IMG/VR virus record: IMGVR_UViG_3300025087_000192
Span: 1 to 39,083 of that record
Origin: a virus
Length of the DNA stretch: 39,083 nt
Direction: 5' to 3' (one strand)
Both the position numbers and the translations under genes were made by a program. Shown piece by piece: positions 10,905-33,984 of this stretch. The first letter of the stretch is position 1. Each line of letters opens with the position of its first letter. The notes under the pieces were generated by a model. The model saw only the letters and a program-made list of their open reading frames with translations. It was not told the DNA's origin and searched no databases.

Positions 10905-11021
10905 GACTTATAGTGTCACCATGATCTATAGATAGATTATACTTATCTTTTTACATAGACTACGCTGGACGCCTGTTTTTGGTGATTTTTTTGGGTATTG
11001 TGGTGCATCCTGGCGACATTT

Positions 11022-11051
11022 CTATTGACACTATTTTCTCCATGATATAGA
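11022..11051 (+). promoter_or_regulatory. Possible rightward promoter in the control region
   Basis: CTATTGACA, the same nine-mer as in three stronger promoters, with TATAGA 15 bases after TTGACA. The short spacer weakens it. It would transcribe about 500 bases without a gene, through the DnaA boxes. Confidence 0.35.
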
Positions 11052-11172
11052 TGTGTTATTTTCCAGTATTTTGGGTGTTGTAAGTCATTTATTTTCAATG
11101 GTTTATAATATCTATTTCCTATAATGTAGGTTATGTTAACTTGACTCCGACGAGGACTTAAGCCGTTAGGAG

Positions 11173-18039: not shown

Positions 18040-18954
18040 ATGGACAAGCCTAATACTAAGAGCGTTCAGGACACGTTGAGAGAGGTCGTTGGGGAAACCG
18101 TAAGCTCCCCCAAGACAGCCCCTGTCACCGAACCGAAAGAAGCCGCTCCGACTGGCACTTCTACGGAAACAAAAGCTGGTGAACCCGTAAAAGAGTATGT
18201 TTCGGGTATTGATTTATCCGATATTCCAGAGCAGGACAGACCTCGGTTTAAAGAGTTGTTTTCAAAGAAGGCAAAGCTACTTGAAGATGGCTACCAAGCC
18301 AAATTTAAGGGTGTTGCCGCACTTGCCAAGGCTCAACAGGACATGGAGGCTATGGGTCTTCAGGTTGATGAAGCTAGGGACGTATTGACTAAGCATCTTG
18401 AGTCAAAGAAAGCCAAGGCTTCAGGTGTTGAAGTTAAAGTTGACACCAAGGCAAAGAATTTGAGAACGCTTGACAGGTTAATCGAAAATGCCGCTGATAC
18501 TGACCAAAAAGCCGCACTTCAACAAATGAGAACCATCGTTGAAGAAGAAACCGGCATCAAGGAAATCAAAGAGAAGCTGGAATTATTTGACAAGTTCTAT
18601 AAGGCATCAACAACTGAACTTTCCAATAAGAGGTATTCACAGCTTGATTCCGAGATTAAAGTCCTTGAGGAACAATACGGTGCAGAATTGGTGGGCAAGT
18701 ATAGAGAAGACATCTTGAAACACGGGATGCAGTCGAATAACACGCCCCGTCGTCTTCTTCATGCTATCGCAGACCCTGACGAAATCGAGCAAGCTATCCT
18801 GACGAAGAAGACGAAACCAGAAGTACCCAGAATAAGCGAAGATAAACTTAACGCTATTTCGTCAAGCTCGTCTGGAATAACAGGCTCTAAAGAACACCTA
18901 GACACAAAGAAACTAGGGTTTAAAGACCTATTCCGAGAGTTGGCAAAGAAATAG
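18040..18954 (+). CDS. Scaffolding protein (probable)
   Basis: Three hundred and four residues, highly charged and mostly helical after a Pro/Thr-rich N-terminus, with two predicted coiled coils (about 70-130 and 150-230) and a basic C-terminus (KKLGFKDLFRELAKK). This composition directly before the major capsid gene is typical of scaffolds, which shape the procapsid and then leave. The helix-rich C-terminus is the likely coat-binding end. Confidence 0.8.
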   Translation: MDKPNTKSVQDTLREVVGETVSSPKTAPVTEPKEAAPTGTSTETKAGEPVKEYVSGIDLSDIPEQDRPRFKELFSKKAKLLEDGYQAKFKGVAALAKAQQDMEAMGLQVDEARDVLTKHLESKKAKASGVEVKVDTKAKNLRTLDRLIENAADTDQKAALQQMRTIVEEETGIKEIKEKLELFDKFYKASTTELSNKRYSQLDSEIKVLEEQYGAELVGKYREDILKHGMQSNNTPRRLLHAIADPDEIEQAILTKKTKPEVPRISEDKLNAISSSSSGITGSKEHLDTKKLGFKDLFRELAKK

Positions 18955-18976: not shown

Positions 18977-19972
18977 ATGTCGTACTTATCAACGACTGTA
19001 GCTTGGGACACAATTCGGAGCATTACGCACCCGAAGGTGGCCCAGAAGATTGCCGATAACATTACCGGCAAGATCCCACTTCTTTATTTTCTGAATCGCA
19101 TGGGGAATAAAGAGATGGAGAATGGCGGTGTCAACTATATGTTGCCCGTCTTTAAAGAGCTGGCGAGTGCCCAGTTTTATACCGGGTTGACTTCGTTGTC
19201 TTCCAATGAAGCCGATCCATTCACGACCGCTATCTTCGAGCGCAAACAGGTGACTGTTCCGGTTGTGGCATCTGGAACAAAGATGTTGCAGAATTCAGGG
19301 AACAATCCTGAAGCCATTATCAATTACATGGCGGCGATTGTCGAAGCGGCTGAAGAATCAATGAAGAGCGCATTAGCTGGCTCTGCGAACGGCATCTTCT
19401 CGACGAACACCGAGAGTGATGTTGGTATTACAGGTTTACAGAACATCGTTTCTGATACTCCGACAACGACCGTCAGCGGTGGTCTTGACCCTGCGACGTA
19501 TTCGTTCTGGCGGAATTATCAGGGAGCTTGTGCAACGAATTTCAGCACGAGCGGACGTTCTTCGTTTGACACGGCGTTTTACTCTTGCGTCCGTGGAGAT
19601 GAATCGCCGACCATTGTCGTTACGACACAGGCGGCTTATATTAACCTCAACACCGTATTGACGGGGACGATTAGCTTCAATCAGAACAACGTCGCTCCTA
19701 AAGTCAATTATGGCGATCTGGCGTTTGAACATATCTATTGGCATGGCGTTCCTGTCATGTTCGATAGTTATTGTCCTGCTAACCATGCGTATTTTCTGAA
19801 CTTGAAGTATCTGAAGTTTATGGTGCATGGTGAAAGGGACTTGTCGTTTAGGGATTGGATTACTCCCGGCGATCAGGATGCACTGGTGGCTCGTATGTAT
19901 TGGGCTGGAAACCTCGTTTGTTCAAACAGGGCTCGTCAGGGTGTTATTTCGACGAACCTCGATACCTATTAA
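18977..19972 (+). CDS. Major capsid protein
   Basis: Three hundred and thirty-one residues behind CAGGAG. Position and pattern fit an HK97-fold coat protein: an N-terminal helical arm, GGVNYMLPVFKELAS, the long helix AIINYMAAIVEAAEESM, and a C-terminal strand region (FRDWITPGDQDALVARMYW, GNLVCSNRARQGVI). The coding sequence is more GC-rich than its neighbours, as often for highly expressed coat genes. Confidence 0.9.
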   Translation: MSYLSTTVAWDTIRSITHPKVAQKIADNITGKIPLLYFLNRMGNKEMENGGVNYMLPVFKELASAQFYTGLTSLSSNEADPFTTAIFERKQVTVPVVASGTKMLQNSGNNPEAIINYMAAIVEAAEESMKSALAGSANGIFSTNTESDVGITGLQNIVSDTPTTTVSGGLDPATYSFWRNYQGACATNFSTSGRSSFDTAFYSCVRGDESPTIVVTTQAAYINLNTVLTGTISFNQNNVAPKVNYGDLAFEHIYWHGVPVMFDSYCPANHAYFLNLKYLKFMVHGERDLSFRDWITPGDQDALVARMYWAGNLVCSNRARQGVISTNLDTY

Positions 19973-19991: not shown

Positions 19992-20501
19992 ATGCGTAAC
20001 TTAAAAATGTTGTTAGCGGTTGCTTTTGTTCTTGCTTTCACGGGTATCGTGAAGGCTGAGAACTCGGCAACGGGTTATGACGCAACGTATAGAAGCCAGC
20101 AGGTTTTTGTTGGAGCTTATGCGTATGCGGCGGTAAGCAAGAATGACGTTGTTATTCTTGACGTTACAAACAGCACCAATGGCTCAACGAAGGGTGCTTA
20201 TATTAATACAACGACAACAACGAACAGCGTCTATGTGTTTGGCGTTGCTGATGAAGACATTGCGACTGGCACGTTGGGTCGCATTTGTGTTCGTGGGCCG
20301 CACCTTGTTACTATGATAAACACTGGGCTGACTGTTGCCGGGACTCCGATGGGGGCTTCTAGTACGGCAGGAAAAGCGGCCGCAACGTCAGCGGCTGATG
20401 GTACAGCGAGTGGCGTTCTTGGATTAGGGTTGTCTGATACATATGACACCACTGATACTGATGCCGCATGGATCTGGGTTAATCCTAGAACCCATAAATA
20501 A
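19992..20501 (+). CDS. Capsid decoration-like protein with N-terminal signal peptide
   Basis: One hundred and sixty-nine residues behind AAAGGAG. The body (AVSKNDVVILDVTNSTNGST, GAYINTTTTTNSVYVFGVAD, RICVRGPHLVTM) resembles the DUF2190/decoration-type beta protein often placed after the coat gene. Unusually, residues 1-23 form a Sec signal: basic RNLK, hydrophobic core MLLAVAFVLAFTGIV, cleavage site VKA-EN. The family as I know it lacks such a signal. Either it is exported or the N-terminus was recruited for another use. Confidence 0.75.
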   Translation: MRNLKMLLAVAFVLAFTGIVKAENSATGYDATYRSQQVFVGAYAYAAVSKNDVVILDVTNSTNGSTKGAYINTTTTTNSVYVFGVADEDIATGTLGRICVRGPHLVTMINTGLTVAGTPMGASSTAGKAAATSAADGTASGVLGLGLSDTYDTTDTDAAWIWVNPRTHK

Positions 20502-20509
20502 TGCTTCTG

Positions 20510-20533
20510 AAGGGGTGAGCAATATCACCCCTT
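20510..20533 (+). terminator. Perfect hairpin upstream of O-antigen ligase gene
   Basis: AAGGGGTGA pairs fully with TCACCCCTT around a GCAATA loop. The following sequence (CGACATTTTA) is only weakly U-rich, so termination may be partial. The stem hides the only ribosome-site-like GGGG before the next gene. Confidence 0.65.
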
Positions 20534-20543
20534 CGACATTTTA

Positions 20544-21680
20544 ATGACAAACATTATCGTTATCGCCATATTACTGATGCCTTGGATATTCGTGCCTGAC
20601 ACGTCATTTATTGACCAGATGCGATTACCAAAAGCTGTTTTCTTTGATATGGTGTGTATGACAATAATTGCGTCATGCTTTATCTCTGGGCAAAGATTCC
20701 AATACAAGAATAAATGGCTTGGAATAATGCTTCTTATGATAATGGCAGGTTTGTTTATGAATTGGTACTTTCCATATATGATTCAGATCGAGAATAAGCG
20801 TGTTCTGAATATGTGGAACTTAAGTGCGTCGATTCATGCCATATTAGGGATTGTGGCGTCATTTTGTATAATGACAAGCCTTGACAGGGCTAGTTATATA
20901 AGGATAGCCAAAGCGATATGTCTATCAGCGGTGTTCTGTTCGCTTTTTGGCATACTACAGGCGATAGGCTTTGACCCAATGTCGCAGATTACAACGTATA
21001 AGGCCTACGAATCTAACCATGTTGCCGCAATTTTAGATCATCCGAATATGCTTGGGAATTTTCTTGCGCTGTCGATTCCATTCTTTCTGTTTTTTGATGC
21101 CCCGATATTTGCTCTTGGTATTTGTATTTGTGTTCTTTGCCTTTACTTTACGCATTCTTCAACGTCAATGATGGCGTTATTCATTAGCACTCTTGCTTAC
21201 TTCTTCATTAAAAATATAAGAAACGTGAAGTGGGTAATTGGAATTATTGCCGGCAGTGCAATTGTTCTTGCTGTCGTGTTGACAGCTCCGGGGTTTAATA
21301 AGATATCAGCAGGGTTCACGGGTCGTGCGGCGATCTGGGGACAGGCGATTGAAAGGATAAAGGACAATCCTGTATTCGGGCAAGGCTTGGGGAGATTTGC
21401 CACGTTTGACATTAACCAAAGCGGAATGCGTTGGGAGTTTGTCCATAACGACTATATTGAAATGGTCATAAACTTCGGGTTTATTGGACTAGCCATCTTT
21501 GGCTTTATAATTTTCAATTCATTTAAGAATTTCAACCTATCGTCGGAGAATGCGTTAGGTTTCTCATATATTGCGTCACTTGTGGCGTTTCTGGTGATTA
21601 TGTTCGGGTCATTCCCTTTAGAATTCGCTCCGGCGTGTTTATTGGGGATGATGGCGTTTTGCGGCACTGAACGACTTTAA
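20544..21680 (+). CDS. O-antigen ligase / Wzy-type polymerase-like membrane protein
   Basis: Three hundred and seventy-eight residues with about ten membrane segments. Near residues 257-310 the sequence GRAAIWGQAIERIKDNPVFG, then GQGLGRF, later VHNDYIEMVINFGFIGLA, is the signature of the Wzy_C/O-antigen ligase family, which joins or polymerises polysaccharide on lipid carriers in the inner membrane. In a phage this suggests alteration of host surface polysaccharide. No clear ribosome site; a hairpin lies in front. It looks like a cargo (moron) gene between decoration and coiled-coil genes. Confidence 0.8.
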   Translation: MTNIIVIAILLMPWIFVPDTSFIDQMRLPKAVFFDMVCMTIIASCFISGQRFQYKNKWLGIMLLMIMAGLFMNWYFPYMIQIENKRVLNMWNLSASIHAILGIVASFCIMTSLDRASYIRIAKAICLSAVFCSLFGILQAIGFDPMSQITTYKAYESNHVAAILDHPNMLGNFLALSIPFFLFFDAPIFALGICICVLCLYFTHSSTSMMALFISTLAYFFIKNIRNVKWVIGIIAGSAIVLAVVLTAPGFNKISAGFTGRAAIWGQAIERIKDNPVFGQGLGRFATFDINQSGMRWEFVHNDYIEMVINFGFIGLAIFGFIIFNSFKNFNLSSENALGFSYIASLVAFLVIMFGSFPLEFAPACLLGMMAFCGTERL

Positions 21681-21693
21681 CTAAAGGGGTAAT

Positions 21694-22542
21694 ATGGCTA
21701 AGCAGAAAGATGTTAAGTTGGAAGACAACAGTAAGGTTTCAATGTTTGAGTATTCCGAGATGGCTTCACAAATGATTGAGCAGAGGAAAAAAGAGTTCTC
21801 TAATCTTCAGCACAATTATTTACTTGCGACGATGGCGTTAAAGAATACCCAAGAACAGATTGCCAATGAACGTGTAGCTTTCGAGCAATTAAAGAAGGCT
21901 GAAGAGAAGCGTCGTGAGGACATTCTTGTTAAAAAAGAGCGTGACATGGACGAAAAAGCTCATGCGCTTGAAGTGAATGTAAGGACGTTTGAGAAGAGAA
22001 GTGCAGATTTGAAAGCCCGTGAGATTGCCGTAGCTCATTTATTTGAAGATCGTAACAAGTTAAATGAAGAGCGTATCGACGTTGAACGGCTTCGGAATAA
22101 AGCTGAAGATGCAATGCGCCAAGCCAATAAGAAGAGTTCAGAGGCGTCGGCGTTAATGAACACCTCAAGGGTCAAGGAAGACGAGGCTAAAGCGTTAATG
22201 GCAAAAGTTGACGCTATGAATGTAAACCTTGCGACAAGAGAGGCACAGCAAAAGAAGCAAACGGATGAGATAATCAATCGAATTAAGGAGCTTAACGCCT
22301 TAAAAGAGATTGTTGACCCGAAGATAAAAGAACTTGAATTGGTTGATGCCGGGATTAAAGAGAAGGAAGCCGAGCTTGCCCAAAGAGAGAAAGATGTTGC
22401 GAGGAAGCTTGAAGAGGATAGGGCTATTGTTATCGCCTTCTCTGAACGGGAAAAAAAGCTTAAAGCCCGTGAAATAGAGGTTTCGACAAGAGAGCAGGAA
22501 GTCACTCGGAAATTGCTTCTTATGAAAGGGTCTGAAAAATGA
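21694..22542 (+). CDS. Long coiled-coil virion-operon protein
   Basis: Two hundred and eighty-two residues behind AAAGGGG. From about residue 25 to the end it is a near-continuous charged coiled coil with recurring KAREIxV segments (LKAREIAVAHLF, LKAREIEVSTREQEV). No catalytic domain. Possibly structural or an assembly chaperone; position before the connector genes. The stop overlaps the next start as ATGA. Confidence 0.65.
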   Translation: MAKQKDVKLEDNSKVSMFEYSEMASQMIEQRKKEFSNLQHNYLLATMALKNTQEQIANERVAFEQLKKAEEKRREDILVKKERDMDEKAHALEVNVRTFEKRSADLKAREIAVAHLFEDRNKLNEERIDVERLRNKAEDAMRQANKKSSEASALMNTSRVKEDEAKALMAKVDAMNVNLATREAQQKKQTDEIINRIKELNALKEIVDPKIKELELVDAGIKEKEAELAQREKDVARKLEEDRAIVIAFSEREKKLKAREIEVSTREQEVTRKLLLMKGSEK

Positions 22543-22877
22543 GCCGTAAAGTCATGACCGGGAATGAAGGGGTATTGGATACTGACAGGACGTTAGTGTA
22601 TAACCTTGTCTTTAAATCCACGCTCAAGGCAAGAAACATTTCCGTTTCAGACACGGCTACACCTTTACCGACGACTCCGCTTGCTAGGAGAATGAGCATT
22701 ATTGTTCAGAATTATGGCAACGTTGTTTTGTTTATTGGGGCTTCCGATGTCACAGTTAATGATGGATTCCCGATATTGCCAAGGGCTACGATACAGTTAA
22801 GCGTTGAAGAAGAGGTCAATATTTACGGCATAGTAGCGACTGGCACTTGTGCGGTTCGCATTCTGGAAGGGGCATAG
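22539..22877 (+). CDS. Small beta-rich virion protein
   Basis: One hundred and twelve residues. The pattern RRMSIIVQNYGNVVLFIGAS, DGFPILPRATIQLSVEEEV, IYGIVATGTCAVRILEGA is that of small beta-sandwich phage proteins found near head decoration and connector genes. Precise role unknown. Confidence 0.65.
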   Translation: MSRKVMTGNEGVLDTDRTLVYNLVFKSTLKARNISVSDTATPLPTTPLARRMSIIVQNYGNVVLFIGASDVTVNDGFPILPRATIQLSVEEEVNIYGIVATGTCAVRILEGA

Positions 22878-22878
22878 T

Positions 22879-23991
22879 ATGCAACGCCTTGACATAGCAA
22901 CGTCAGTTGAATCAATATCGAATGTCCAACAGCAGAGGTCGCTTGTAAACAGAGCGATTCAAATTGCTCTTGAGAGAGTCTATCAGTTCACAGACTGGCC
23001 GTATTACCTTCAATGGGGTTCAATAAGAACGACAGCCACATACACAACTGGCGCGGCAAAGGTAACGAACGGAAGTAAGACGGTTACTGGCGTTGATACC
23101 GTGTGGACTTCTGCCATGATCGGGAGAAAGTTTAGACATTCAGACGAGGCGGCTTATTACCGTATAACGGCTGTTGGTGGGGATACAAGCCTTACCATTG
23201 ATAACGAATATCAAGGGACTACGGATGTCGTTGGCTCTTCTTACACGATTTATAAAGACGAGTACCGGCTTGCTTCTGATATGGATAAGAACAAGACGGC
23301 TATTCAGATACAAAACCGTGTTCCGATGGTAGATCTTCCGCCGGGTGAATTTGATAAACAGATGCCCGTTCCGCAGTCTTATGCAGACCCAATTTATCAG
23401 GTTCAGTCAGGCACGAAGCTTGACACTTACACCACGGGGACAGTAACGTGTTCTGGCACGACAATAACAGGAATTGGGACAGCTTGGTCTTCCGTTGAAG
23501 GTCTTGGACGCATGAGCCGGATTATTATCGGTAGCAATGCTTATACCGTTAAGTCCGTCAATTCGGATACATCAATCACAACATATGAAGCCCTTACAGC
23601 GATATCTGTTGGCACAACATATGTCATTGAGCTTCGGAATGTCATAGTCCAGCTCTATCAGATACCGGATGCCGCAAGGATGCTCTACTATCGCTATTAC
23701 AGGATCCCGGAAATTATGGCGAATGATTATGACAACCCGGATATGCCATCTCATTGGGATTGGGTGCTTATTTACGGGGCACTATCAATGACTTTCCTTC
23801 AAAAAGGGGATGTAACAAAAGGCACTGAATGGTGTCAACAGGAGTTCGAAAAAGGATTGGCTTTAATGAAGAACAAGGTTGGGTCTTTTGTTGCCAACCG
23901 AATTTATAAGAAGCAGTGCGTGGATAAGGCAGGGAGTCGTCCCGGCGTTGGATTAGAAAGAAGCTCATTCGATAGGCGGTATTCTTCGTGA
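22879..23991 (+). CDS. Head-tail connector/tail-tube-like protein with duplicated beta domain
   Basis: Three hundred and seventy residues from ATG 22879 (GGAAGGGG site). It starts with helices (VQQQRSLVNRAIQIALERVY) typical of adaptor proteins. Two related beta modules follow: about residues 52-115 (VTNGSKTVTGVDTVWTSAMI) and 185-250 (VTCSGTTITGIGTAWSS). This phage module often sits in connector or tail-tube proteins. The end is helical and basic. Its position matches gatekeeper/tail-tube genes of short-tailed phages. Confidence 0.7.
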   Translation: MQRLDIATSVESISNVQQQRSLVNRAIQIALERVYQFTDWPYYLQWGSIRTTATYTTGAAKVTNGSKTVTGVDTVWTSAMIGRKFRHSDEAAYYRITAVGGDTSLTIDNEYQGTTDVVGSSYTIYKDEYRLASDMDKNKTAIQIQNRVPMVDLPPGEFDKQMPVPQSYADPIYQVQSGTKLDTYTTGTVTCSGTTITGIGTAWSSVEGLGRMSRIIIGSNAYTVKSVNSDTSITTYEALTAISVGTTYVIELRNVIVQLYQIPDAARMLYYRYYRIPEIMANDYDNPDMPSHWDWVLIYGALSMTFLQKGDVTKGTEWCQQEFEKGLALMKNKVGSFVANRIYKKQCVDKAGSRPGVGLERSSFDRRYSS

Positions 23992-25622
23992 TTAAAAGGT
24001 TAATACTCACAGCGATTCTATTGTTTTCTTCATTGGCTACGGCTAACGCTGGTGTCCTATGGAGTAAGCATTCATATTTTCGTAACTTCGGTGGTCTGAA
24101 TGACGTGTCTTCTTCTTCTGAAATTGAAGATAACGAAGCGACAGATATTCAGAACATTGTCTTTGATACGTCAGGTGCTATCAAGAAGCGTTATGGATAC
24201 AGAACGCTTCCAGAATCAACTGGAACAATATATAAGGCGGCGACTGGTCAGATCACCGGGCTGATATATTTCAAGAAGTCAAACGGAGATAAGTTTCTCT
24301 TTGGAATAAGCAATGATAGTGGTCAGGCGAGAGCCTTCTATAAGCAGTACGACACAAGCACATCATTACCCGTTAGTGCGTGGACAGACAATACTGGGAT
24401 TTTACCATCTGGATATTCAGCTGATTATTTAGCGACGCTTTCAGTTGCGAATGATTTAGTTGTTATTACGCTCGATGCCGGAACACAAAAGAAGCCTTTT
24501 GCATGGACAGCGACAGCCCCAGTATATCAATTATCATCTGATGCGAATCTTCCTGTTGCGACATTAAACTGTTATCATAAGAACATTTTATTTCTCGCCG
24601 GCAATGACGCTTATCCTTCAAGAGTGTATTTCAGCAACCTTGGATTGATTGACACATGGACGGTCACAGACTTCTTTGATGTTAATTCCAATAATGGAAC
24701 AAGGGTGACAGGTCTTATTTCTGCGTATGACTGTCTTTACATTTTCTTAGACAAGTCAATATGGAGGCTTTCTGGGTCTGATAGAGATAGCTTTCAACTT
24801 GAGAAGATGGTTGACAATATCGGAACGACGAGCCAGCAGTCTTTATCCATTGTAAATAATCTTATCTACTTTACTACGGCGCAGGGCGATATTGCAGTGT
24901 ATGACGGGGCATATACCGTCAAGTTTTTATCACAGAAGATACGCAACACAATCGGTGGATTGAATTTTACCAGAGCAAGCAAGACGTTGGGTCTTGCCTT
25001 CTCGACGTATAAATACGTTGATAATGATTATTATGTTGCTGTGTCAGAGTCTGGTTCTGGAACAAATAATCTTATCCTTCTTTTTGATACGGCGCATAAT
25101 GCTTGGACAAAATTTAAAGGGATTAACGCCTCTGCTTGGACGGTAGCCGATACGTCTTCAGGTCAGTACGCTATGGTATTTGGAGATTATGACGGGTATG
25201 TTCACCAGTATCCATCAACTGGATATTATGACGGGGACGTGGCAACGTCTGCGATTTCGGCACACTACCAGACGAAATGGTTTAGATACGCCGACCAATC
25301 GTTAGGCGACAAATATATGCGGCTATTAAAGACTTACTGTCTTTCGGAAACGCAATCGCCCAATAATTTGACCATTGAAGCCAAGGCTGATTATGAAACA
25401 GTTGGAACGGAATATGTAGTTAATCTATCCCAAAGCGGTGCTATGTGGGACGTAGCCTTGTGGGATATTGATTTGTGGTCAGGACAGAGATTGATAGTCG
25501 ATAGGGAAGAGGTCAACAAAGGTGTTGATATTTTTCAGTTAAAGTTTTCTAATGAGAATGTTGACGAAGGGTTTACGGTTCTCGGGTACGAAAATTATAT
25601 CGAGCCCAGCGACCGCATCTAG
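23988..25622 (+). CDS. Tail hub/tubular-type protein with N-terminal signal peptide
   Basis: Five hundred and forty-four residues with a GTG start overlapping the previous stop (GTGA). Residues 23-66 (SYFRNFGGLNDVSSSSEIED, NEATDIQNIVFDTSGAIKKR) are the characteristic opening of a phage beta-propeller-like tail protein family following the connector. Ahead of it lies an unexpected Sec signal: IKRLILTAILLFSSLATANA then GVLWSK. No alternative start is near, so the signal is part of the gene. A tail role is inferred from family and position. Confidence 0.75.
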   Translation: MIKRLILTAILLFSSLATANAGVLWSKHSYFRNFGGLNDVSSSSEIEDNEATDIQNIVFDTSGAIKKRYGYRTLPESTGTIYKAATGQITGLIYFKKSNGDKFLFGISNDSGQARAFYKQYDTSTSLPVSAWTDNTGILPSGYSADYLATLSVANDLVVITLDAGTQKKPFAWTATAPVYQLSSDANLPVATLNCYHKNILFLAGNDAYPSRVYFSNLGLIDTWTVTDFFDVNSNNGTRVTGLISAYDCLYIFLDKSIWRLSGSDRDSFQLEKMVDNIGTTSQQSLSIVNNLIYFTTAQGDIAVYDGAYTVKFLSQKIRNTIGGLNFTRASKTLGLAFSTYKYVDNDYYVAVSESGSGTNNLILLFDTAHNAWTKFKGINASAWTVADTSSGQYAMVFGDYDGYVHQYPSTGYYDGDVATSAISAHYQTKWFRYADQSLGDKYMRLLKTYCLSETQSPNNLTIEAKADYETVGTEYVVNLSQSGAMWDVALWDIDLWSGQRLIVDREEVNKGVDIFQLKFSNENVDEGFTVLGYENYIEPSDRI

Positions 25623-25635
25623 AAATCGTTTGTTT

Positions 25636-26271
25636 TCAATAGGTTACAACATTATGCTTACTTTTAAGAGTTTCGGAAATCTTATCACGAGTTTCTTGAG
25701 AAACAATATGACCCTTATGCCATTTATTAAGTCCACTATTTTTATCATTAAGAGCGTGCCAGCGCATATGTTCAGATTTATTCGCAAACAACATAAGGTT
25801 TTCAATTCTGTTGTCAAGTTTATTCCCGTTAATATGATGAACACATTCTTGTTTTGTAAGAGGTCTGCCAATATGTGCTTCCATAATAAGAATGTGTTCA
25901 CAAACGCTTTTATATGCTTTAATCGCTTTTGGATGACCTGGCATAAAAATGTATCTATATCCACCGGAAATTCTAAATTTAAGTCTTGGCTTATTGCGTC
26001 TAGATTCTCCAGATTTCCTTCCATATTCAAATATCTTTTTAGATGTTTTGGTCGTGAGTCCTTTATTCCAAGAAATAATTCCTTGACGAAGTTTATTTCC
26101 AATCATATTAGGATTTTTCTTTCCTTTCCAGAAAGATACTCTACCAAGTGTGCTACATCTAACAGAGCAAAAATTTCTTCTTTCCCAATACTTCTTTCCA
26201 TGAGAAGGTTGTTTAGTAAATTCTTTGCCACATTTAATGCAATTTTTAGTAAGAATGATTTTCGTTTTCAT
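25636..26271 (-). CDS. Free-standing HNH homing endonuclease with NUMOD3 motifs
   Basis: Two hundred and eleven residues on the strand opposite its neighbours, and clearly AT-rich. N-terminal zinc-binding CIKCGKEFTKQ ... FCSVRCS, a NUMOD3-like NKGLTTKTSKKIFEYG, the HNH core (CEHILIMEAHIGRPLTKQEC, VHHINGNKLDNRIENL), then a second NUMOD3-like motif (SQETRDKISETLKSK). Such enzymes cut alleles lacking the element so it is copied. It fills exactly the gap between two tail genes, leaving both intact. It is a mobile gene, not a virion part. Confidence 0.9.
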   Translation of the reverse strand: MKTKIILTKNCIKCGKEFTKQPSHGKKYWERRNFCSVRCSTLGRVSFWKGKKNPNMIGNKLRQGIISWNKGLTTKTSKKIFEYGRKSGESRRNKPRLKFRISGGYRYIFMPGHPKAIKAYKSVCEHILIMEAHIGRPLTKQECVHHINGNKLDNRIENLMLFANKSEHMRWHALNDKNSGLNKWHKGHIVSQETRDKISETLKSKHNVVTY

Positions 26272-26288
26272 AATAAGGATTATATTCT

Positions 26289-26576
26289 ATGCGTTGGTTA
26301 ATGTCAATAAGCATCTGTTTGGTTTTGATATCTTCTCTCGGCTTCGCAACACCAGAGCCGCCGAAGATAATTGACAAGGCGACCTATGAATACGTTAGAA
26401 CATTACGAAATAATCTTAATCGTCTTCCTGTTGTTGTTAGCAACCCTTCAGGGGTTAGATTAGGGGATTATGGGGATATGATTTTGTATAAGAACGGTGC
26501 GACGTTCAGTTTAATGATAAACGTGTCGAGTCCTAATGGAAAAACATGGCTCGGCGTAAATCTTGGAGTAATATGA
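26289..26576 (+). CDS. Small secreted protein in tail-fiber cluster
   Basis: Ninety-five residues with a Sec signal (MRWLMSISICLVLISSLGFA then TPEPP). The body has a helix (YEYVRTLRNNLNRLP) and a beta-rich end (MILYKNGATFSLMI). Ribosome site AAGGATT lies just beside the HNH gene. The stop overlaps the next start (ATGA). Not a known family. Confidence 0.65.
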   Translation: MRWLMSISICLVLISSLGFATPEPPKIIDKATYEYVRTLRNNLNRLPVVVSNPSGVRLGDYGDMILYKNGATFSLMINVSSPNGKTWLGVNLGVI

Positions 26577-27505
26577 AAAAAACAGCCCTCTTATTTGCGT
26601 TATACGCCACGATAATTGCTCAAGGCACCTGTTATGCCTCCGCACCAAGTCGGACTTACAACTATGTGGCAGGTCAAACAATTTCTTCAGCACAGGTCAA
26701 TACGAATGAGATTTCTCTTTATTCATATTTACAGAACGGTGTTGAGGTATTGGCTGCAAATTCCGTAACTGATACCGCTGTGTCTGCCAGTGCTAACATC
26801 CAATATTCCAAGCTGAATTTAGCAGGACAGATACTCAATGCTGATATTTCATCTTCGACTACGATTGATTACACGAAACTGAATTTAACAGGCAAAATTG
26901 TTAATGCAGACATTTCGGCATCTGCCGCTATTGCTGATAGCAAGCTCGCCACGATTACAACGGCTAGTAAAGTCAACACTTCAGCAATAACTGGAACTCT
27001 TGGCGTATCAAATGGAGGTACTGGTCAAACAACAGCACAGGCGGCGATTGATGCTTTACTTCCGTCTCAAGGGTCTGCAAGTGGAAAATTTCTTACATCG
27101 AATGGGAGTGCGAGCAGTTGGGGGACAGTAACCACATACACTCCATCTGTAAAGTTTGGATCATTCTCAAGAACTCCGGGCACAGGAAGTGGTTCTGTCA
27201 ATTATACAGGAGTTGGATTTCAACCGACATCAATTATGTTTTTTGTTCCTACTTATGGTACAAACAATTACTCTTATGGTGGATATGGAACAAACAATGC
27301 GAATTACTGTACATATACATCCGGTGGAGCTGGGGCAGGAACAAGCACGACATATTCAATAGTTCAGCAACTTGGCGGTGCAAATTATTCAGAGTCAGGG
27401 GCAGTTTCATCTATGGGTGCGGATGGATTTACTATAGCATGGACGACTGCCGCAGGATCAGATGCGAGTGCGGCTTTTACAGTTTTTTATGTAGCAACAA
27501 AATAA
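26573..27505 (+). CDS. Tail-fiber-like protein with signal peptide
   Basis: Three hundred and ten residues from ATG 26573. The signal peptide is MKKTALLFALYATIIAQGTC with cleavage near YASA. The body repeats a short fiber motif three times (SANIQYSKLNLAG, SSTTIDYTKLNLTG, SAAIADSKLA), then LGVSNGGTGQTTAQAAIDAL, a motif found in many phage fibers, and ends in a Gly/Tyr/Thr-rich beta domain. Probably receptor-binding or adhesive. The export signal is atypical for a fiber. Confidence 0.75.
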   Translation: MKKTALLFALYATIIAQGTCYASAPSRTYNYVAGQTISSAQVNTNEISLYSYLQNGVEVLAANSVTDTAVSASANIQYSKLNLAGQILNADISSSTTIDYTKLNLTGKIVNADISASAAIADSKLATITTASKVNTSAITGTLGVSNGGTGQTTAQAAIDALLPSQGSASGKFLTSNGSASSWGTVTTYTPSVKFGSFSRTPGTGSGSVNYTGVGFQPTSIMFFVPTYGTNNYSYGGYGTNNANYCTYTSGGAGAGTSTTYSIVQQLGGANYSESGAVSSMGADGFTIAWTTAAGSDASAAFTVFYVATK

Positions 27506-27513
27506 GGATTCTT

Positions 27514-28194
27514 ATGAAAATACTATTCCTAACTTTAGCTATCATATTCGGACTTCAACTTAACTGCCTTGCCAACCCGTCTAACTCGGTGAGCATTTCA
27601 TACCCTGCGGTGGCTAATGCGGTAATTGCTTCGGCTGAATACAATGCGAATAATAATGAAGTCCAGACGAAGTATAACAGCCATTCGCATATTGATATTG
27701 ACAATCTAGCGACAGTAACGACGGGCGTTTGGGCGGCGACTCCGATTAACTATCCTTTCTTGGAATTAACAGACTCTATCGTAGGTGACGATTTATCTGA
27801 CAGTGCGATGGAGAAGATTTATCCAGTCGGCTCGATTTATATATCAACCGTATCGACGAATCCGGCAGCGTTATTTGGCTTTGGGACTTGGACAGCTTTT
27901 GCGGAAGGTCGTGTATTGATAGGGGTGGGAACGTCAGACGCTGTTTATGCCGCCGCCGCTACTGGCGGTGCTTCTACGGTTACCTTGACAGCGGCACAGA
28001 GTGGGCTACCAGCGCATACTCATGCTCAAGACTCCAGAACGCTTCTTAATGTTGCCGGAGGAAATAACAACTCTGGAAGCAATGGTTTGGATGCTGGAGG
28101 GAATACAGGGTCAACAGGTGGAACGTCCGCCGCCGAAGCGCACACGAACCTGATGCCGTATGTTGTGGTCTATTGTTGGCACAGAGATAGTTGA
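27514..28194 (+). CDS. Tail-collar/Gp10-C-like fiber protein with signal peptide
   Basis: Two hundred and twenty-six residues from ATG 27514 (AAGGATT site). Signal: MKILFLTLAIIFGLQLNCLA then NPSNS. The C-terminal half has YPVGSIYISTVSTNPAALFG, FGTWTAFAEGRVLIGVG, GLPAHTHAQ and ends VVVYCWHRDS, as in the baseplate Gp10 C-terminal/tail-collar family that forms trimeric fiber ends. A longer upstream extension of the frame is the shadow of the previous gene. Confidence 0.82.
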   Translation: MKILFLTLAIIFGLQLNCLANPSNSVSISYPAVANAVIASAEYNANNNEVQTKYNSHSHIDIDNLATVTTGVWAATPINYPFLELTDSIVGDDLSDSAMEKIYPVGSIYISTVSTNPAALFGFGTWTAFAEGRVLIGVGTSDAVYAAAATGGASTVTLTAAQSGLPAHTHAQDSRTLLNVAGGNNNSGSNGLDAGGNTGSTGGTSAAEAHTNLMPYVVVYCWHRDS

Positions 28195-28248
28195 GGAATT
28201 ATGATAAAGACTTTAACCTTAATGCTTTATAAATCGGGAGTGTGATAT

Positions 28249-29046
28249 ATGGGCTTCTTAGGCGATATTGTCGGAAGTGTAATGAATTCTTCTAAAGGCG
28301 GCGGCGCAAGAAAAGGTGCTGAGGAATCTATTGATAAGCTTTCTAATGAAGCATATAACCGTGGAAAGATGACTGACGCTGAAAGCGAGCAGTATTCCGG
28401 GTCGTTTGATATTGGAAAATTGATCGAGCAGGTTTATAAAGGACAGGTGGGTCTTGGAAAGATGCCAGAAGGTTATGCAACGCCTGAACAGCAATACCTT
28501 CAGCAAACAGGAGAGATTGGAAAAAGCCTTTATGACACAACGCTTGCCGATTTGAAAGATCCTTATGCCACCTATGAAAGCCAGTTAAACCCGGCATTGA
28601 AGGCGGCTGAGGACTTCGTAAATACATCAATGCAACGACGTGGACTGCTTAAATCGGGTCTTAATATCGAAAGCATGGGGAGAGCTGGCGTTGACCTTGC
28701 AATTAAAGAAGCCCAAGATAGGATGGCGTATCGTTCAGAGGCTTTAACCCGTGGTGCTGGTATGGCTGATACTATTCAAAGTACGGGGCAGACGAATTTA
28801 GCAAACATATCAAACCTGTATAACACACAGCAGGGCTATGGTCAGAACGCCATGGCAAGACAGGCAGGACAGGCTTTAGGCGTATTGCCTACACAGGTAG
28901 CCCCTCAAATGGCTCGTCTTGGTGATGCCTATGCAATGATTCAGACAGGACGGAAACAACAGCAATCGGCTATTAATACTGGGGCTGACGCATTGCAAAC
29001 AGCCGCCACTGGCGGAAACTTTGGCGCAAGTCTTTTCGGAGGATAA
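28249..29046 (+). CDS. Ejection/internal virion protein 1 (probable)
   Basis: Two hundred and sixty-five residues, Gly/Ala/Gln rich. It starts MGFLGDIVGSVMNSSKGGGA and contains RRGLLKSGLNIESMGRAG and a Gln-rich C-terminus (GRKQQQSAINTGADALQTAA). This is the usual make-up of the first of three ejection proteins in short-tailed phages, which enter the cell envelope with the DNA. Inferred from composition and position. Confidence 0.7.
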   Translation: MGFLGDIVGSVMNSSKGGGARKGAEESIDKLSNEAYNRGKMTDAESEQYSGSFDIGKLIEQVYKGQVGLGKMPEGYATPEQQYLQQTGEIGKSLYDTTLADLKDPYATYESQLNPALKAAEDFVNTSMQRRGLLKSGLNIESMGRAGVDLAIKEAQDRMAYRSEALTRGAGMADTIQSTGQTNLANISNLYNTQQGYGQNAMARQAGQALGVLPTQVAPQMARLGDAYAMIQTGRKQQQSAINTGADALQTAATGGNFGASLFGG

Positions 29047-29050
29047 TTAT

Positions 29051-30265
29051 ATGGCAGGCGAATTTCAAGCTACATTAGCAAGCGGTATGGAGGCAGGACG
29101 TGACCCTGTTGAGGAGAAGCGTCAACTGCTTCGTTTAGAACAGCAACAAGAGTCAAAGAAGCAACAGGCTCAACAGCAGTTTGCTCATAACTTTCTTAAA
29201 CAATTTGGAATTGTAAAAGAGAAAGATATTGAGCCGTCTGCGTCGGAATTAGAAGAATCGCTCAAGTCCTTCGGACAGAAGAACGGGTCAGAAGTAAAGT
29301 TTAATATTGCTCCTGATTCTTCTGAGGAACAGAAGGTCGCCTTTCTTAAACAATTACACAGTGCGTATAAAATCCCTGTTCCAAAAGGTAGAAGCGAAAC
29401 GGTGTTTGATGAAAAAGCGGCGAAAGGTCTTGAGGTAAGTTTATCTAGTTCTGGTGAGGCAAGCCTTAAGTCAAAAGAGAATGAATTATCAGCTGAAGAT
29501 GCCGCTGAAAAATTAACACGGGCAATGGGAATAGCCCCGAAAGGATATAAGCCAACAGTAAGCACGAAAGGCGGTGTTGGATACAAGCCCGAGAGTGAAG
29601 ATATCGGTATATACACCTTGAATCCAATTACTGGGGATGTGGAGCAAAAAGCCTCTGTTCCTTATGGTAGCAAGACGTATAAAGCCGTTATGACACCGGA
29701 ACAGATTAAAGAGCGTTCTTATTCAGAAGCACAGGGGAAGGCTATCGGTAAAAACATTGAAACATCTGACAAGTTAGCGTCGGCGGTTAAACGTTTAGAG
29801 ATAATAAACTCGCAATTTAAAAAAGCATTACCTTCAGGCGATAAAACGCCATTAGAACAGCGCATTTCTGGGGCAACGTCTTCTTGGGCGGCAAAGGCAG
29901 GGCTGATTGATAATAAAGAACTTGTTGCACTTCAGAAGAATATTAGACCAATGGCTATAAACATGATTCGGGCTTTTGGGGAGGTCGGGAATCTTTCCGA
30001 ATCAGAACAGAAAGGCGCAATAGACGTTGTTGAGCAATCCGGGCTCACAGATGATGAGCGGATTGCGGCTACTAAGCAATTCATTGAATTTGCTTTAGCT
30101 GGGGCAAGTCCTGAAGGAATTAAACATTTGAGGTCAAGAAAAGACATTCAAGGAATATTGGATGCTTTTGGTGTTGAGTTGCCGAATTATGGTGATGAAG
30201 AATCTGTTGCTCCAAAAGGGGCGGCGAAAGTAACGGATTACAAGTCAATATATGGATTGAAATAA
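29051..30265 (+). CDS. Ejection/internal virion protein 2 (probable)
   Basis: Four hundred and four residues from ATG 29051 behind GGAGG. The N-terminus is a Gln-rich helix (LLRLEQQQESKKQQAQQQF), then mixed Ser/Lys-rich sequence and helices in the C-terminal third (NIRPMAINMIRAFGEVGNLS). The second of three adjacent large, low-complexity proteins; a DNA-ejection role is inferred. Confidence 0.65.
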   Translation: MAGEFQATLASGMEAGRDPVEEKRQLLRLEQQQESKKQQAQQQFAHNFLKQFGIVKEKDIEPSASELEESLKSFGQKNGSEVKFNIAPDSSEEQKVAFLKQLHSAYKIPVPKGRSETVFDEKAAKGLEVSLSSSGEASLKSKENELSAEDAAEKLTRAMGIAPKGYKPTVSTKGGVGYKPESEDIGIYTLNPITGDVEQKASVPYGSKTYKAVMTPEQIKERSYSEAQGKAIGKNIETSDKLASAVKRLEIINSQFKKALPSGDKTPLEQRISGATSSWAAKAGLIDNKELVALQKNIRPMAINMIRAFGEVGNLSESEQKGAIDVVEQSGLTDDERIAATKQFIEFALAGASPEGIKHLRSRKDIQGILDAFGVELPNYGDEESVAPKGAAKVTDYKSIYGLK

Positions 30266-30266
30266 T

Positions 30267-31841
30267 ATGGCAGACCTAGCCCGCATTAAAGAGAATGTTG
30301 CCAAAATGGCATCAATGAACGCCCCCGTAGAAGATATTGACGGGTATATCGCTTCTGAAGGCACTACAGTTGACGCTATTAAGGCGTTTAAGCCACAAAT
30401 GTTCGCAACCGAAGCCGAAGGTCGCCAAGCGTCTGAAGTAGCATTTAAAGAGCAAAAGAGGCTTCAGGGCGAGGCTTCTCCGCTGGCGGTCGCTGGCAAA
30501 GGCTTGGCAAATACTGGCAAGGAAATTGTCGGTGGAATAAACACAGCCCTGAATACCGCTACGGCAGGGGCAACTGACATTCCTTATCAAATGGCTGGAA
30601 CAACGAATGTCCCGGCTGAAACAGGAGATATTGCTAAAGGCGCAGGAATGGGTCTTGGAATGGTTGGCGGGATCCCCGGTGCGGTCGCTAAAGGTGCAGG
30701 AGCTATGCTTGCCAATACTGGTCTTTGGAAAGCACCGGGTCAATATATGGCTATGGGTCGTGAGTTAAAGGCATTACAGGCTCAATATGGCAAGACAGCC
30801 GAAGGCGTTAAAGTACCAATGACAAGGCTTGCAGACCATATTGGGGAAGCCGTCGTCAAGGCAAAAGACAAATTGGGGAATTTCAAGAAAGAAATTGATA
30901 ACGCCATATTCTCTGAATCAGAAAAAGCGGCTTCTTTTGTTCATTCTAAATTACCTCCGTTTTTCAAAAAGGCTTCTAAAGAATATGGAGATAGACTTGA
31001 AGAAATTGCTCAGTTTGCTGATGAAACAGGAAAAATCACAAGAAAAGAAGCGCATGAATTTGTTTCTGGTATAAAGCAAGAAGCTATATCTAAACAACTG
31101 GATATTGGTAAAGCATACGACAAGGTTGACGAAATATTAAAAGGCTATCCACTAGAAGGAGAACCTTCAATTATTCTTTCTGAAAAAGGAACAAAGACTA
31201 TTCAAGATTTATCACAAGATTTAATACCGTTTAAAGATTTTAATGCTTCCATCCGTGAAGTAATGAAAAAAACAGGAGCTACCTTTAAATCTGGACAGAG
31301 AGTTTCCCCCGAAGATTTAGCCGCCATGATTACTAAAGAACATTATGGTCAATTTCTTGAAAGCAAAGTGTCGTCGGAAGTCGCTCAATCTCTCAAACAG
31401 CTTAATGCCGACTACAAACCCATTGCACAGGCAAGACAAGAAGCCGGACGCATATTTAATCCATATTTAGAGTTTAAAGAAGGACAGGGTTCGTCTTGGT
31501 TAGCAAAGGTAGCGGAAAATACTGCAAAGAAAGACTTATCTATTGGAGAACAAAAACTGTTATCTCTTCTCGAAGAAGGCAATGCAATGGGCGAAGGCGT
31601 GGGTGATGTTACGTCAACCATTCGTGCTTTAGGTAAACAGAAGGCAAGTACCGTAAAAGACATTGAGAATACGGTTAATGATTTGGTTATGAAGCAGAAC
31701 AAGGTCAAGGATTATGAAGCGACACGGGCATCAATGAATAAGAAGGTTGGATGGGCTTTGGGGATACTTGGAATTGGTGGGTTAGGTGGAGCAAGCCAAG
31801 TATATAGAGCAGGTCGTCAGGCAACTGAATTTACCAGATGA
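30267..31841 (+). CDS. Ejection/internal virion protein 3 with membrane-active segment
   Basis: Five hundred and twenty-four residues starting one base after the previous stop. Around residues 65-165 it is rich in Gly/Ala (GKGLANTGKEIVGGINTALN, AKGAGMGLGMVGGIPGAVAK), like the membrane-inserting part of ejection proteins. The middle is helical and charged, and the C-terminus has a hydrophobic GWALGILGIGGLGGAS segment. Confidence 0.7.
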   Translation: MADLARIKENVAKMASMNAPVEDIDGYIASEGTTVDAIKAFKPQMFATEAEGRQASEVAFKEQKRLQGEASPLAVAGKGLANTGKEIVGGINTALNTATAGATDIPYQMAGTTNVPAETGDIAKGAGMGLGMVGGIPGAVAKGAGAMLANTGLWKAPGQYMAMGRELKALQAQYGKTAEGVKVPMTRLADHIGEAVVKAKDKLGNFKKEIDNAIFSESEKAASFVHSKLPPFFKKASKEYGDRLEEIAQFADETGKITRKEAHEFVSGIKQEAISKQLDIGKAYDKVDEILKGYPLEGEPSIILSEKGTKTIQDLSQDLIPFKDFNASIREVMKKTGATFKSGQRVSPEDLAAMITKEHYGQFLESKVSSEVAQSLKQLNADYKPIAQARQEAGRIFNPYLEFKEGQGSSWLAKVAENTAKKDLSIGEQKLLSLLEEGNAMGEGVGDVTSTIRALGKQKASTVKDIENTVNDLVMKQNKVKDYEATRASMNKKVGWALGILGIGGLGGASQVYRAGRQATEFTR

Positions 31842-31881
31842 CTAGCGATTTGAAACAATTATTAAAAGACCGAGTAAGAAT

Positions 31882-31947
31882 ATGGCTAACCACATATCGT
31901 TCCTTTCAGTTAATAAAAGCATACCACAAAAGGTTGACAATGTATAA
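31882..31947 (+). CDS. Possible 21-residue microprotein
   Basis: ATG 31882 to TAA 31947, overlapping the next gene start (ATGTATAA). The product MANHISFLSVNKSIPQ... has ordinary composition. The main rival is that 31838-31939 codes an N-terminal extension of the following protein. Confidence 0.25.
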   Translation: MANHISFLSVNKSIPQKVDNV

Positions 31948-33688
31948 AAACATTTGGATATGGTTAAAATCTAGGACAAGGTGGCTGTACCGCATTAAGA
32001 GGTCATGGATGGCTTGTGCCTTGCTTCTATGCGCTATTGGGGTTAATGCCGATCCGATCAGGTACGAGAACGCACCATTGAATATTTCTGATGGAACAAC
32101 GAGTGTCTATCCGTATCAGTTTAATGTGCCGAGTGGGTCATTGACTGATAATAGCGACGGGACAGCTACCCTTAACATTGACTCAGAGATTTACAGTAAC
32201 TCCGGCTGGACAGCCTCAACAGGTCAAACGGTATCGACGCTCAACGTCGGCATCGGCACAACAATTCCAACCCGTAAATTAGACGTAGTCGGAACAGCAA
32301 CCATCTCCGGGGCTGTCGGGCTTGGAACGACTACGGTAACGGGGAATGTTTTTGTTAGTGGGAATGTTGGGATAGGGACGACAGTTCCAGCGTATAAAAT
32401 AGAGTCTACTTCTGGTGATATTGCCTTCAACACGGGCGGGTTTATTTCTGCCACAGGTGGGACGATCACAACTTCTGGAAGTAAGACTATCCATACCTTC
32501 AATGACTCTGGAACATTTACAGTTTCTACTGCGACTACGGTTGAGTATCTTGTAATTGGAGGTGGCGGTGGCGGCGGAAGTCTTATTGCTGGCGGTGGTG
32601 GTGCTGGTGGATACAGGGAAGGCGTTTTATCAATAGCCGCGGGAACACACGATATTACTGTCGGTGCAGGTGGTATTGCAGTTACTGGTGGGGCAGCGGG
32701 GGTCACTGGAAATGATGGCAATCCTTCGATATTTAGCACAATAACATCCGGAGGCGGTGGTGGCGGTGGTACATACAATAATGTGGCAGGTAGAAACGGT
32801 GGTTCGGCTGGCGGCGGTGGTGGGGCAGAAGGTTCAGGCACTGGATGTTCAGCGGCTGGTGGAACGGCATCTCCGGCAGGACAAGGAAATAACGGCGGTT
32901 GCGGTGGAGCTAAGCCGAGCGGTGTATATCAAGGCGGTGGCGGTGGTGGTGGTGCTGGTGCGGTTGGACAAGCGTTCCAGACAGTTAATGGAGGTAACGG
33001 CGGTACTGGTGTAACGCTATCAATAAGCGGTTCTCCTGTTTGTTATGCTGGTGGTGGTGGTGCTAGTGCCACTGGAGTAGGGACATTTGGAACGGCTACT
33101 TGCGGAGGTGGCGCAGGTGCGGTTGGCGGTAATTCAGGCACAAATGGAACAGCAAATACCGGAGGCGGTGGCGGTGGCGTATCGGGCGGTACGTCAGGAG
33201 CTGGCGGAAAAGGCGTTGTAATAATCCGTTATTTAACACAAACACCAGACACCTCGTCTGCCATGACCCTGAAAAGCGGGAAGCTAGGCGTTGGTACAGG
33301 GTCACAATTATCCAAAGTCGGAGTGAATGGCGGAGTATCCGTTGGAAGCTCTTATTCTGGAATTCTTGCCCCTACTGATGGGTTGATAGTACAGGGTAAT
33401 GTCGGCATTGGCACGGCAATACCGGGCGCAACGTTACAGGTTGGTTCGGGCACAATCTCAGGTACGATGGCTTCGTCAAGTGCGCATATTCAGGGCGATC
33501 TTGAGATAGATGGAACACTTTATAGCGGTGGGACAACATTTGGCTTTCGCGTAGCAACAGCCGCAAATCAGGCGTGTACTACAACCTGTGTTCGTGGATG
33601 TGTTTTAGGTCAGGATACGGCGGCATTAACCTATGCGATAGTGGCTTGTTCAAGTGCGGCTGCAGATATTTGTCTCTGTTCAAAATAA
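31940..33688 (+). CDS. Glycine-rich adhesin/fiber with signal peptide and Cys-rich end
   Basis: Five hundred and eighty-two residues from ATG 31940 (AAAAGG site); the frame is open back to 31838. The export signal has a long basic n-region and core MACALLLCAIGVNA, then DPIRY. Fiber repeats follow (NVGIGTTVPAYKIES, LNVGIGTTIPTRKLDV), then about 250 residues with many Gly runs (VIGGGGGGGSLIAGGGGAGG), as in polyglycine receptor-binding domains of T-even adhesins. Another GNVGIGTAIPGATLQVG repeat precedes a C-terminal domain with six Cys (ACTTTCVRGCVLG...CLC), suggesting disulfides. Likely the receptor-binding adhesin. Confidence 0.78.
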   Translation: MYKNIWIWLKSRTRWLYRIKRSWMACALLLCAIGVNADPIRYENAPLNISDGTTSVYPYQFNVPSGSLTDNSDGTATLNIDSEIYSNSGWTASTGQTVSTLNVGIGTTIPTRKLDVVGTATISGAVGLGTTTVTGNVFVSGNVGIGTTVPAYKIESTSGDIAFNTGGFISATGGTITTSGSKTIHTFNDSGTFTVSTATTVEYLVIGGGGGGGSLIAGGGGAGGYREGVLSIAAGTHDITVGAGGIAVTGGAAGVTGNDGNPSIFSTITSGGGGGGGTYNNVAGRNGGSAGGGGGAEGSGTGCSAAGGTASPAGQGNNGGCGGAKPSGVYQGGGGGGGAGAVGQAFQTVNGGNGGTGVTLSISGSPVCYAGGGGASATGVGTFGTATCGGGAGAVGGNSGTNGTANTGGGGGGVSGGTSGAGGKGVVIIRYLTQTPDTSSAMTLKSGKLGVGTGSQLSKVGVNGGVSVGSSYSGILAPTDGLIVQGNVGIGTAIPGATLQVGSGTISGTMASSSAHIQGDLEIDGTLYSGGTTFGFRVATAANQACTTTCVRGCVLGQDTAALTYAIVACSSAAADICLCSK

Positions 33689-33696
33689 GGAGATTT

Positions 33697-33984
33697 ATGA
33701 AATACGTTATCTTGTTTGTGATGTTTTTAATTCCGTCGGTTTGCTTCGCAGATTTACAGGCTGATTTAGATGCGGCGAACATCAAAGTCCTACGCACACA
33801 GCTTGAGTTAATAAAGACGCAGGAAGCCGTGGCTCAACAGCAAAGGGAAAAAGAAGTAGCACTGTCTGAAATTGAAGATTTGCGTTTGCAGTTATCGGGA
33901 ACTAATGAACAAGAAAAAATATCCCCGGTTAATATGGAAATGTCATGCGGGACAACAATATCTTGTGACACGACGGTGAAATAA
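33697..33984 (+). CDS. Secreted coiled-coil protein
   Basis: Ninety-five residues from ATG 33697 (AAGGAG site). Signal peptide MKYVILFVMFLIPSVCFA then DLQAD. The rest is a coiled coil (about 20-68, KVLRTQLELIKTQEAVAQQQ) with a two-Cys tail (MSCGTTISCD). A periplasmic role near the lysis genes is possible, for instance spanin-like, but there is no lipobox. Unrecognised family. Confidence 0.6.
   Translation: MKYVILFVMFLIPSVCFADLQADLDAANIKVLRTQLELIKTQEAVAQQQREKEVALSEIEDLRLQLSGTNEQEKISPVNMEMSCGTTISCDTTVK

Follow-up and report, generated by a model that had tools for sequence, protein, structure and literature searches.

Predicted signal peptides on the outer virion proteins of a podovirus-type phage and its relatives

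We analysed the virus record IMGVR_UViG_3300025087_000192, a podovirus-type stretch of 39,083 bases (hereafter the window, meaning this whole stretch), and found signals of the Sec/signal-peptidase-I type at the N-termini of seven proteins of its virion operon, including a capsid cement protein, the tail nozzle or hub, and fibres. The seven N-terminal signals are well supported, and their export and cleavage are predicted. We tentatively suggest that the outer parts of this phage pass into the periplasm, where they mature and may be glycosylated, and that they join DNA-filled heads at lysis; this is the explanation we lean towards, although we would not give it quite an even chance.

Signals in the virion operon

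At the technical level, we used a home-made predictor that combines a von Heijne-type cleavage matrix with rules requiring basic residues in the n-region, an uncharged hydrophobic core and an A-x-A site. As a control, it recovered eight of eight Escherichia coli sequences. A first-pass annotation of the window had claimed seven Sec-type signals within 19992-33984, and our predictor found every one of them at the same start. Under the strict rule, 7 of the 44 genes in the window pass, all inside that interval and none elsewhere. They are listed below, with a slash marking the predicted cleavage site.

19992..20501, + strand: capsid cement (decoration) protein, directly 3' of the major capsid protein (MCP) gene; signal MRNLKMLLAVAFVLAFTGIVKA/ENS; Shine-Dalgarno (SD) sequence AGGAG
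23988..25622, + strand: tail nozzle/hub of the tail tubular protein B or 'phage stabilization protein' type, by homology; signal MIKRLILTAILLFSSLATANA/GVLW
26289..26576, + strand: small operon protein of 95 residues, between the hub and fibre genes; signal MRWLMSISICLVLISSLGFA/TPEPP
26573..27505, + strand: short fibre-like protein, in ATGA overlap with the preceding gene; signal MKKTALLFALYATIIAQGTCYA/SAPSRTYNYV
27514..28194, + strand: collar/fibre protein with a Gp10_C domain (PF21939, E 2.6e-25) and matches to PHROG tail proteins; signal MKILFLTLAIIFGLQLNCLA/NPS; SD sequence AAGGA
31940..33688, + strand: long Gly-rich tail fibre with a Cys-rich C-terminus (PF21722, E 6.8e-15), start codon uncertain; signal ending ACALLLCAIGVNA/DP
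33697..33984, + strand: small coiled-coil protein with a C-terminal Cys pair, virion part or lysis protein; signal MKYVILFVMFLIPSVCFA/DL

The repetition across unrelated domains had been put forward as exceeding chance, and the numbers agree. When the first 60 residues were shuffled, 0.8-5.5% of trials passed for these seven genes, and about 0.5 passes are expected from shuffled N-termini across all 44 genes. Chance hydrophobic N-termini were thus rejected, with seven observed. In a control set of 240 annotated genes from eight records, a looser rule gave 17 matches, mostly weak or on holin/Rz-like (lysis-type) proteins, and none on any hub or MCP.

Contigs of IMG samples 3300002097 and/or 3300025117 contain exact copies of all seven start regions, so the starts are not assembly errors; assembly error was discarded as a source of the signals because these independent contigs are identical there. 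Wrong start codons were rejected for all but the 31940 fibre, on account of SD sequences and overlapping starts: good SD sequences precede the cement gene, 27514 and 33697, and the hub begins at a GTG inside a 4-base overlap with the adaptor gene. For the 31940 fibre, starts at 31838, 31940 and 32009 compete, and its signal is atypical in the window and clear in the orthologues.

Orthologues also helped to place the cleavage sites. The hub site ANA/GV, as first annotated, is backed by them, whereas the matrix alone favoured ATA/NA. For 26573, orthology gives CYA/SAP as the best site (orthologues VYA/APP, ALA/SAP and ALA/TPP). The coiled-coil protein at 33697 may act in lysis instead of forming part of the virion.

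Conservation and origin of the signals

Seven divergent relatives, whose MCPs are 50-61% identical wherever the comparison was made, keep the signals, though the signal sequences themselves have diverged. A terminase scan found G001 (3300020147_000017; G and L numbers are our handles for genomes and loci), which is 58% identical in the terminase and 51% in the hub. It carries signals on its orthologues of the cement, hub, 95-residue protein, short fibre and long fibre, and the N-terminus of its second short fibre resembles a signal but contains no basic residue. Scans with the MCP, the hub and whole genomes added 3300050821_007565, 3300002097_000076 (which also appears as 3300002460_000012 and 3300002223_000062), 3300046484_000042, 3300046653_000036, 3300045118_000751 and JAQTLL010000009.1, a contig binned in a Sulfuricurvum metagenome-assembled genome (MAG). 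The cement protein bears a signal in all these relatives, and the hub, small protein and fibres do so in most of them where the contig covers these genes.

Seven genomes were scored gene by gene, with outer or inner location assigned from homology and gene position. The strict test was passed by 39 of 44 outer or operon-end genes and by none of 59 head, connector and internal genes, counts that come from related genomes and are not phylogenetically independent. Four of the five failures look signal-like by eye; the fifth, the long fibre of L047, does not.

For individual proteins, the cement signal is found in the window and nine related records, and its A/E cleavage site is invariant in eight close phages while the signal sequence varies. 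Six hub orthologues have a signal, and so do the orthologues of the 95-residue protein in L020, L024, L046 and L047. Orthologues of 26573 occur in several relatives; in G001 and 3300050821 the gene is present twice, and every copy begins with a signal-like stretch. The long-fibre orthologue L020:9013 starts with MQIKLFAIFFFFLVSFNATA/Q, and the genes at the long-fibre position in L043 (MKLIKYTILLLLVSLWASTSSVA/Q) and L046 (MKKIALSICFLLITTTCYS/Q) are also signal-bearing; in both, the long fibre is followed by a small gene with a signal-like N-terminus, similar to 33697. Distinct tail modules each bear their own signals, as in five consecutive genes of L054. At 29% MCP identity, L061 has a signal on the cement-position protein and one fibre, not on the hub, and L088 has signals on the cement-position protein and a 100-residue protein. 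In L088:4669-4806, just ahead of the hub's ATG, the reading frame encodes KWILWVGLWALLLSSPALA/QE, a stretch that resembles a signal but lacks an ATG, GTG or TTG start.

In most orthologues an SD-preceded start codon lies upstream of the signal, and no internal restart that would omit it is conserved.

The hub is homologous to hub proteins of cultured and environmental phages, whose best full-length matches begin at its residue 26-30, and a profile including distant homologues matches the tail tubular protein B of PDB 9k09 (E 4.7e-21). No signal was found on 17 more distant hub homologues outside the clade, several of which begin just before the conserved GGLN core. Since close relatives keep the signal and these distant hubs lack it, the signal is a derived addition in this lineage. 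The comparison proposed with the first-pass annotation, to see whether the signal is a lineage-specific addition, thereby gives a clear positive answer.

Family evidence for the cement protein comes only from its orthologue in L060, which matches PF09956 (Phage_cement_2) at E 1.1e-4 and 22.9 bits, under the 24-bit cut-off. The window protein itself has no PF09956 match and a LVIVD match at 21.2 bits, probably by chance. Its structure prediction was uninformative (mean predicted local distance difference test, pLDDT, 49.8), and the family profile reached 6.5% probability against the post-MCP proteins of L048 and L049. Acquisition of the bodies from host surface-protein genes, one meaning offered earlier, was rejected for the hub and cement, which have phage homologues and belong to phage families whose other members are without signals.

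The operon lies on the + strand, from about 12 kb to 36 kb, and spans the terminase through the small coiled-coil protein. Its order is terminase, portal-like, scaffold-like, MCP, cement-like, a Wzy_C membrane protein, a coiled-coil protein, a small protein, SU10-type adaptor, nozzle/hub, small and fibre-like proteins, three internal proteins (by position), the long fibre and the small coiled-coil protein. The features without a signal that matter for the argument are as follows.

15330..17390, + strand: portal-like protein, by position after the terminase; a family search gave no significant family
18040..18954, + strand: scaffold-like protein, by position directly before the MCP gene
18977..19972, + strand: MCP (PHROG 9953, E 4.6e-50)
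22879..23991, + strand: head-to-tail adaptor (PF24175, SU10_adaptor, E 1.1e-7)
28249-29046, 29051-30265 and 30267-31841, + strand: three internal proteins with syntenic genes in relatives, of the ejection type as judged from position only

With homologous MCP, adaptor and nozzle in conserved order (PHROG 9953, PF24175, PDB 9k09), the window holds a P22/T7-type podophage virion module. Its hub departs from that module, in which the nozzle has no export signal.

Assembly, glycosylation and other readings

The usual assumption is that the whole assembly of a tailed phage takes place in the cytoplasm. In the two-compartment assembly that we propose, the portal, scaffold, capsid, adaptor and internal proteins would build DNA-filled heads in the cytoplasm. 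The cement, nozzle/hub, 95-residue protein, collar and fibres would leave through the Sec machinery of the host, lose their signals to signal peptidase I at the A-x-A sites and be held in the periplasm. Disulphides can form there, and glycans could be added by the phage Wzy_C-type enzyme. Failure of the inner membrane at lysis would then bring the heads together with the stored outer parts, and the particle would be completed. Signals on outer proteins and none on inner ones fit such export, periplasmic maturation and late joining. The earlier idea that fibres are added in the periplasm comes close to this and proved too narrow: nearly every outer part is concerned (cement, hub, collar and fibres), and no inner part. 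The fullest version, in which heads are packed in the cytoplasm, the cement, nozzle and fibres are matured and also glycosylated by the Wzy_C-type enzyme in the periplasm, and completion follows inner-membrane failure, is unlikely to hold in every part.

Several points weigh against this proposal. From the sequences we infer that the proteins are exported and cleaved, that virions contain the mature forms, that assembly takes place at lysis and that glycans are attached. The signal calls depend on a home-made predictor, the gene counts on genomes that share ancestry, and the long fibre of L047 has no signal. Two signal-bearing phages, L047 and L055 (a short contig), have no Wzy_C at the usual place. 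In the normal course the packed head is closed in the cytoplasm with help from the nozzle, so a nozzle added later would call for another plug; the adaptor and a 112-residue protein (22539-22877), both without a signal, could be candidates for a temporary one. Finally, Cys makes up 0.94% of the signal-bearing bodies and 0.28% of the others, an excess that stems from the fibres, and hubs with and without signals are alike in Cys. Disulphides are for this reason weak as the main reason for export.

The membrane protein that could act on the exported parts was absent from the first-pass annotation.

20544..21680, + strand: Wzy_C polytopic inner-membrane protein of the O-antigen ligase/polymerase superfamily (PF04932)

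It matches PF04932 at E 1.8e-17 (63.9 bits, cut-off 31.7) and has nine hydrophobic segments, as a multi-pass membrane protein does. A HND motif is conserved in most orthologues. Its profile gives a weak sequence match to the solved polymerase/ligase 7tpg (E 0.0064), and its structure model (pLDDT 66.1) was uninformative, with no fold match in PDB. No PglL-specific match was found in Pfam or NCBIfam. PF04932 proteins also occur in G001, 3300050821_007565, 3300002097_000076 (and its duplicate), 3300045118_000751, L061 (below cut-off), L088 and the Sulfuricurvum contig. Counted by distinct phages, Wzy_C is present in 8 of 10 signal-bearing ones, which fall into three divergent lineages, and it lies either immediately behind the cement gene or with one small gene in between; it was found in none of 16 relatives without signals on cement or hub. 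Enzymes of this superfamily (WaaL/Wzy/PglL) act on the periplasmic side, and we propose that the window protein is a putative periplasmic glycosyltransferase.

Export could then serve chiefly for glycosylation, with the Wzy_C enzyme working like a protein O-oligosaccharyltransferase on an undecaprenyl-linked host glycan and producing a sugar-coated particle. The way Wzy_C follows the signal-bearing cement gene speaks for this, together with the periplasmic action of the superfamily, the two family-2 glycosyltransferase genes of G006 (the L047 genome), a phage that lacks Wzy_C, and an enrichment of Ser/Thr in the signal-bearing bodies (21.7% vs 14.4%), though Ser/Thr-rich fibres are common to many phages. 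The absence of Wzy_C from its position in two signal-bearing phages counts against it. Moreover, the one solved relative that sequence comparison brought up is a polysaccharide polymerase/ligase that matches weakly, the structure model is too poor for placement, and the known role of a phage Wzy protein is to change the O antigen (PMC4815439). We consider glycosylation as the chief purpose rather unlikely.

Another explanation is that secreted cement, hub and fibres act as decoys that block receptors and prevent superinfection, while virions use the fraction that escapes export. Receptor-binding fibres could, by supposition, block receptors, and Wzy_C could also change the receptor polysaccharide, as phage-acquired Wzy-beta does (PMC4815439). 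However, there is no obvious receptor for a capsid cement or a tail nozzle to block, the signals lie on nearly all outer parts rather than on fibres alone, and a start that omits the signal is not conserved. The related suggestion of the first-pass annotation, exported copies that coat the cell, meets the same difficulty: a separate cytoplasmic form is not encoded, with the signal in frame at the only well-supported orthologue start. Altogether, decoys seem improbable to us.

The N-termini could also stay uncleaved, as membrane anchors or as segments that insert into membranes during assembly or entry. Their hydrophobic cores are strong and some c-regions score low (as in the L060 hub), but A-x-A-like sites fall at the junction with the mature domain, the cement A/E is invariant in the close clade, and a capsid cement protein has no known membrane role; we hold this to be quite improbable. 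An ordinary origin, from wrong starts or chance hydrophobic N-termini, is very improbable, as the uncertain 31940 start and the home-made predictor are outweighed by SD sequences with overlapping starts, recurrence in independent contigs, conservation in seven relatives and a chance expectation of about 0.5 in the window.

Known systems and neighbouring observations

The Mx8 branch of the P22/T7-type module (Mx8, Mx9, BUCT555 and 45A6; treated in PMC10386132) has a similar order around terminase, portal, MCP, adaptor, nozzle and fibres. The window MCP is 29-32% identical to those of Mx9, Mx8, BUCT555 and 45A6. Unlike the window hub, the hub and MCP of Mx9 and BUCT555 are without signals, and in Mx8 and Mx9 signals occur only on the fibre-like p64 and a near neighbour (L093:3001-5042 in Mx8, L012:384-2193 in Mx9). 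In Mx8 p64 and its Mx9 homologue, the signal stands before a fibre-type N-terminal domain. In BUCT555 this domain starts at about residue 1, and in ppBjS10J-1 it starts among the first ten residues, with no signal in either. This resembles the window, in that a Sec-type signal is absent from homologues in related phages, and differs from it in being confined to p64 and its neighbour. No Wzy_C was found in Mx9. Judged by their predicted signals, Mx8 and Mx9 are an independent case in cultured Myxococcus phages, and as this related case can be grown, the question of export is directly testable.

In filamentous phages (Inoviridae), virion proteins with Sec-type signals or membrane insertion also join the genome at a place other than the cytoplasm. 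The coat proteins of these phages remain in the inner membrane, and a naked nucleoprotein filament is extruded with no head packaging, whereas the window phage is tailed and head-packaged, with a tailed-phage terminase and MCP. Phage-encoded membrane proteins of the same Pfam superfamily as the window Wzy_C include the serotype-changing polymerase Wzy-beta (D3 type; PMC4815439) and VarioGold VG_p25, a moron-like gene in opposite orientation to the late genes (PMC9658991). Unlike both, the window Wzy_C lies inside the virion operon beside a signal-bearing cement gene. Sec-exported endolysins, such as the predicted one in PMC8951688, are phage proteins that use Sec, as we propose here, but they are lysis enzymes and not structural.

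Apart from these comparisons, we observed further features of the window and its relatives. The terminase large subunit (12432-15095) is split by an intein (about residues 96-425, with a LAGLIDADG domain) in the likely Walker A region; the terminase frame of G001 has 573 residues, and an intein-like insert was not seen there. An HNH endonuclease gene lies on the minus strand between the hub and 26289 (25636-26271). There, the Sulfuricurvum contig is 69% identical in DNA over 586 bases, above the rest of the operon, as expected of a homing element. Short tandem repeats at 6-303, 1423-1712 and 7166-8055 code for low-complexity peptides (VQVGS, RTRSRS, ASVRDSVG). In L060:9980-11626, a homing-endonuclease-like open reading frame (10603-11148) interrupts the MCP gene, with MCP parts on either side, as an intron or intein would. 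After the fibre genes, L046:16544-17647 encodes a second, more distant Wzy_C-like protein (24.9 bits, below cut-off). The two family-2 glycosyltransferase genes of G006 form a cluster with genes for a methyltransferase and a membrane protein with C-terminal tetratricopeptide repeats (L078:4542-9252).

Regarding lifestyle and host, G001 has repressor-like genes and an integrase-like gene by eye (L015:3089-4585), so the clade may include at least one temperate phage. The tetranucleotide profile of the relative binned in the Sulfuricurvum MAG differs from that of the MAG, with r of about 0.5-0.6, compared with 0.91-0.97 for the MAG's own contigs within the pool. Short DNA matches across 228 genomes of the family of Sulfuricurvum were scattered. 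The record L013 (MW495066.1), named Microcystis phage MaAM05, has lepA, proS, ftsH and other cellular genes around a podophage-like block, and looks like a piece of bacterial chromosome with a prophage.

Our literature search, which covered papers available without subscription, turned up no description of a tailed phage with signals across its outer virion proteins. What the sequences show is a known virion module in variant form. Confirmation of the assembly route would turn this into a new kind of tailed-phage assembly: one lineage would finish or modify its particle outside the cytoplasm, and disulphide bonding and protein glycosylation would become open to tailed virions.

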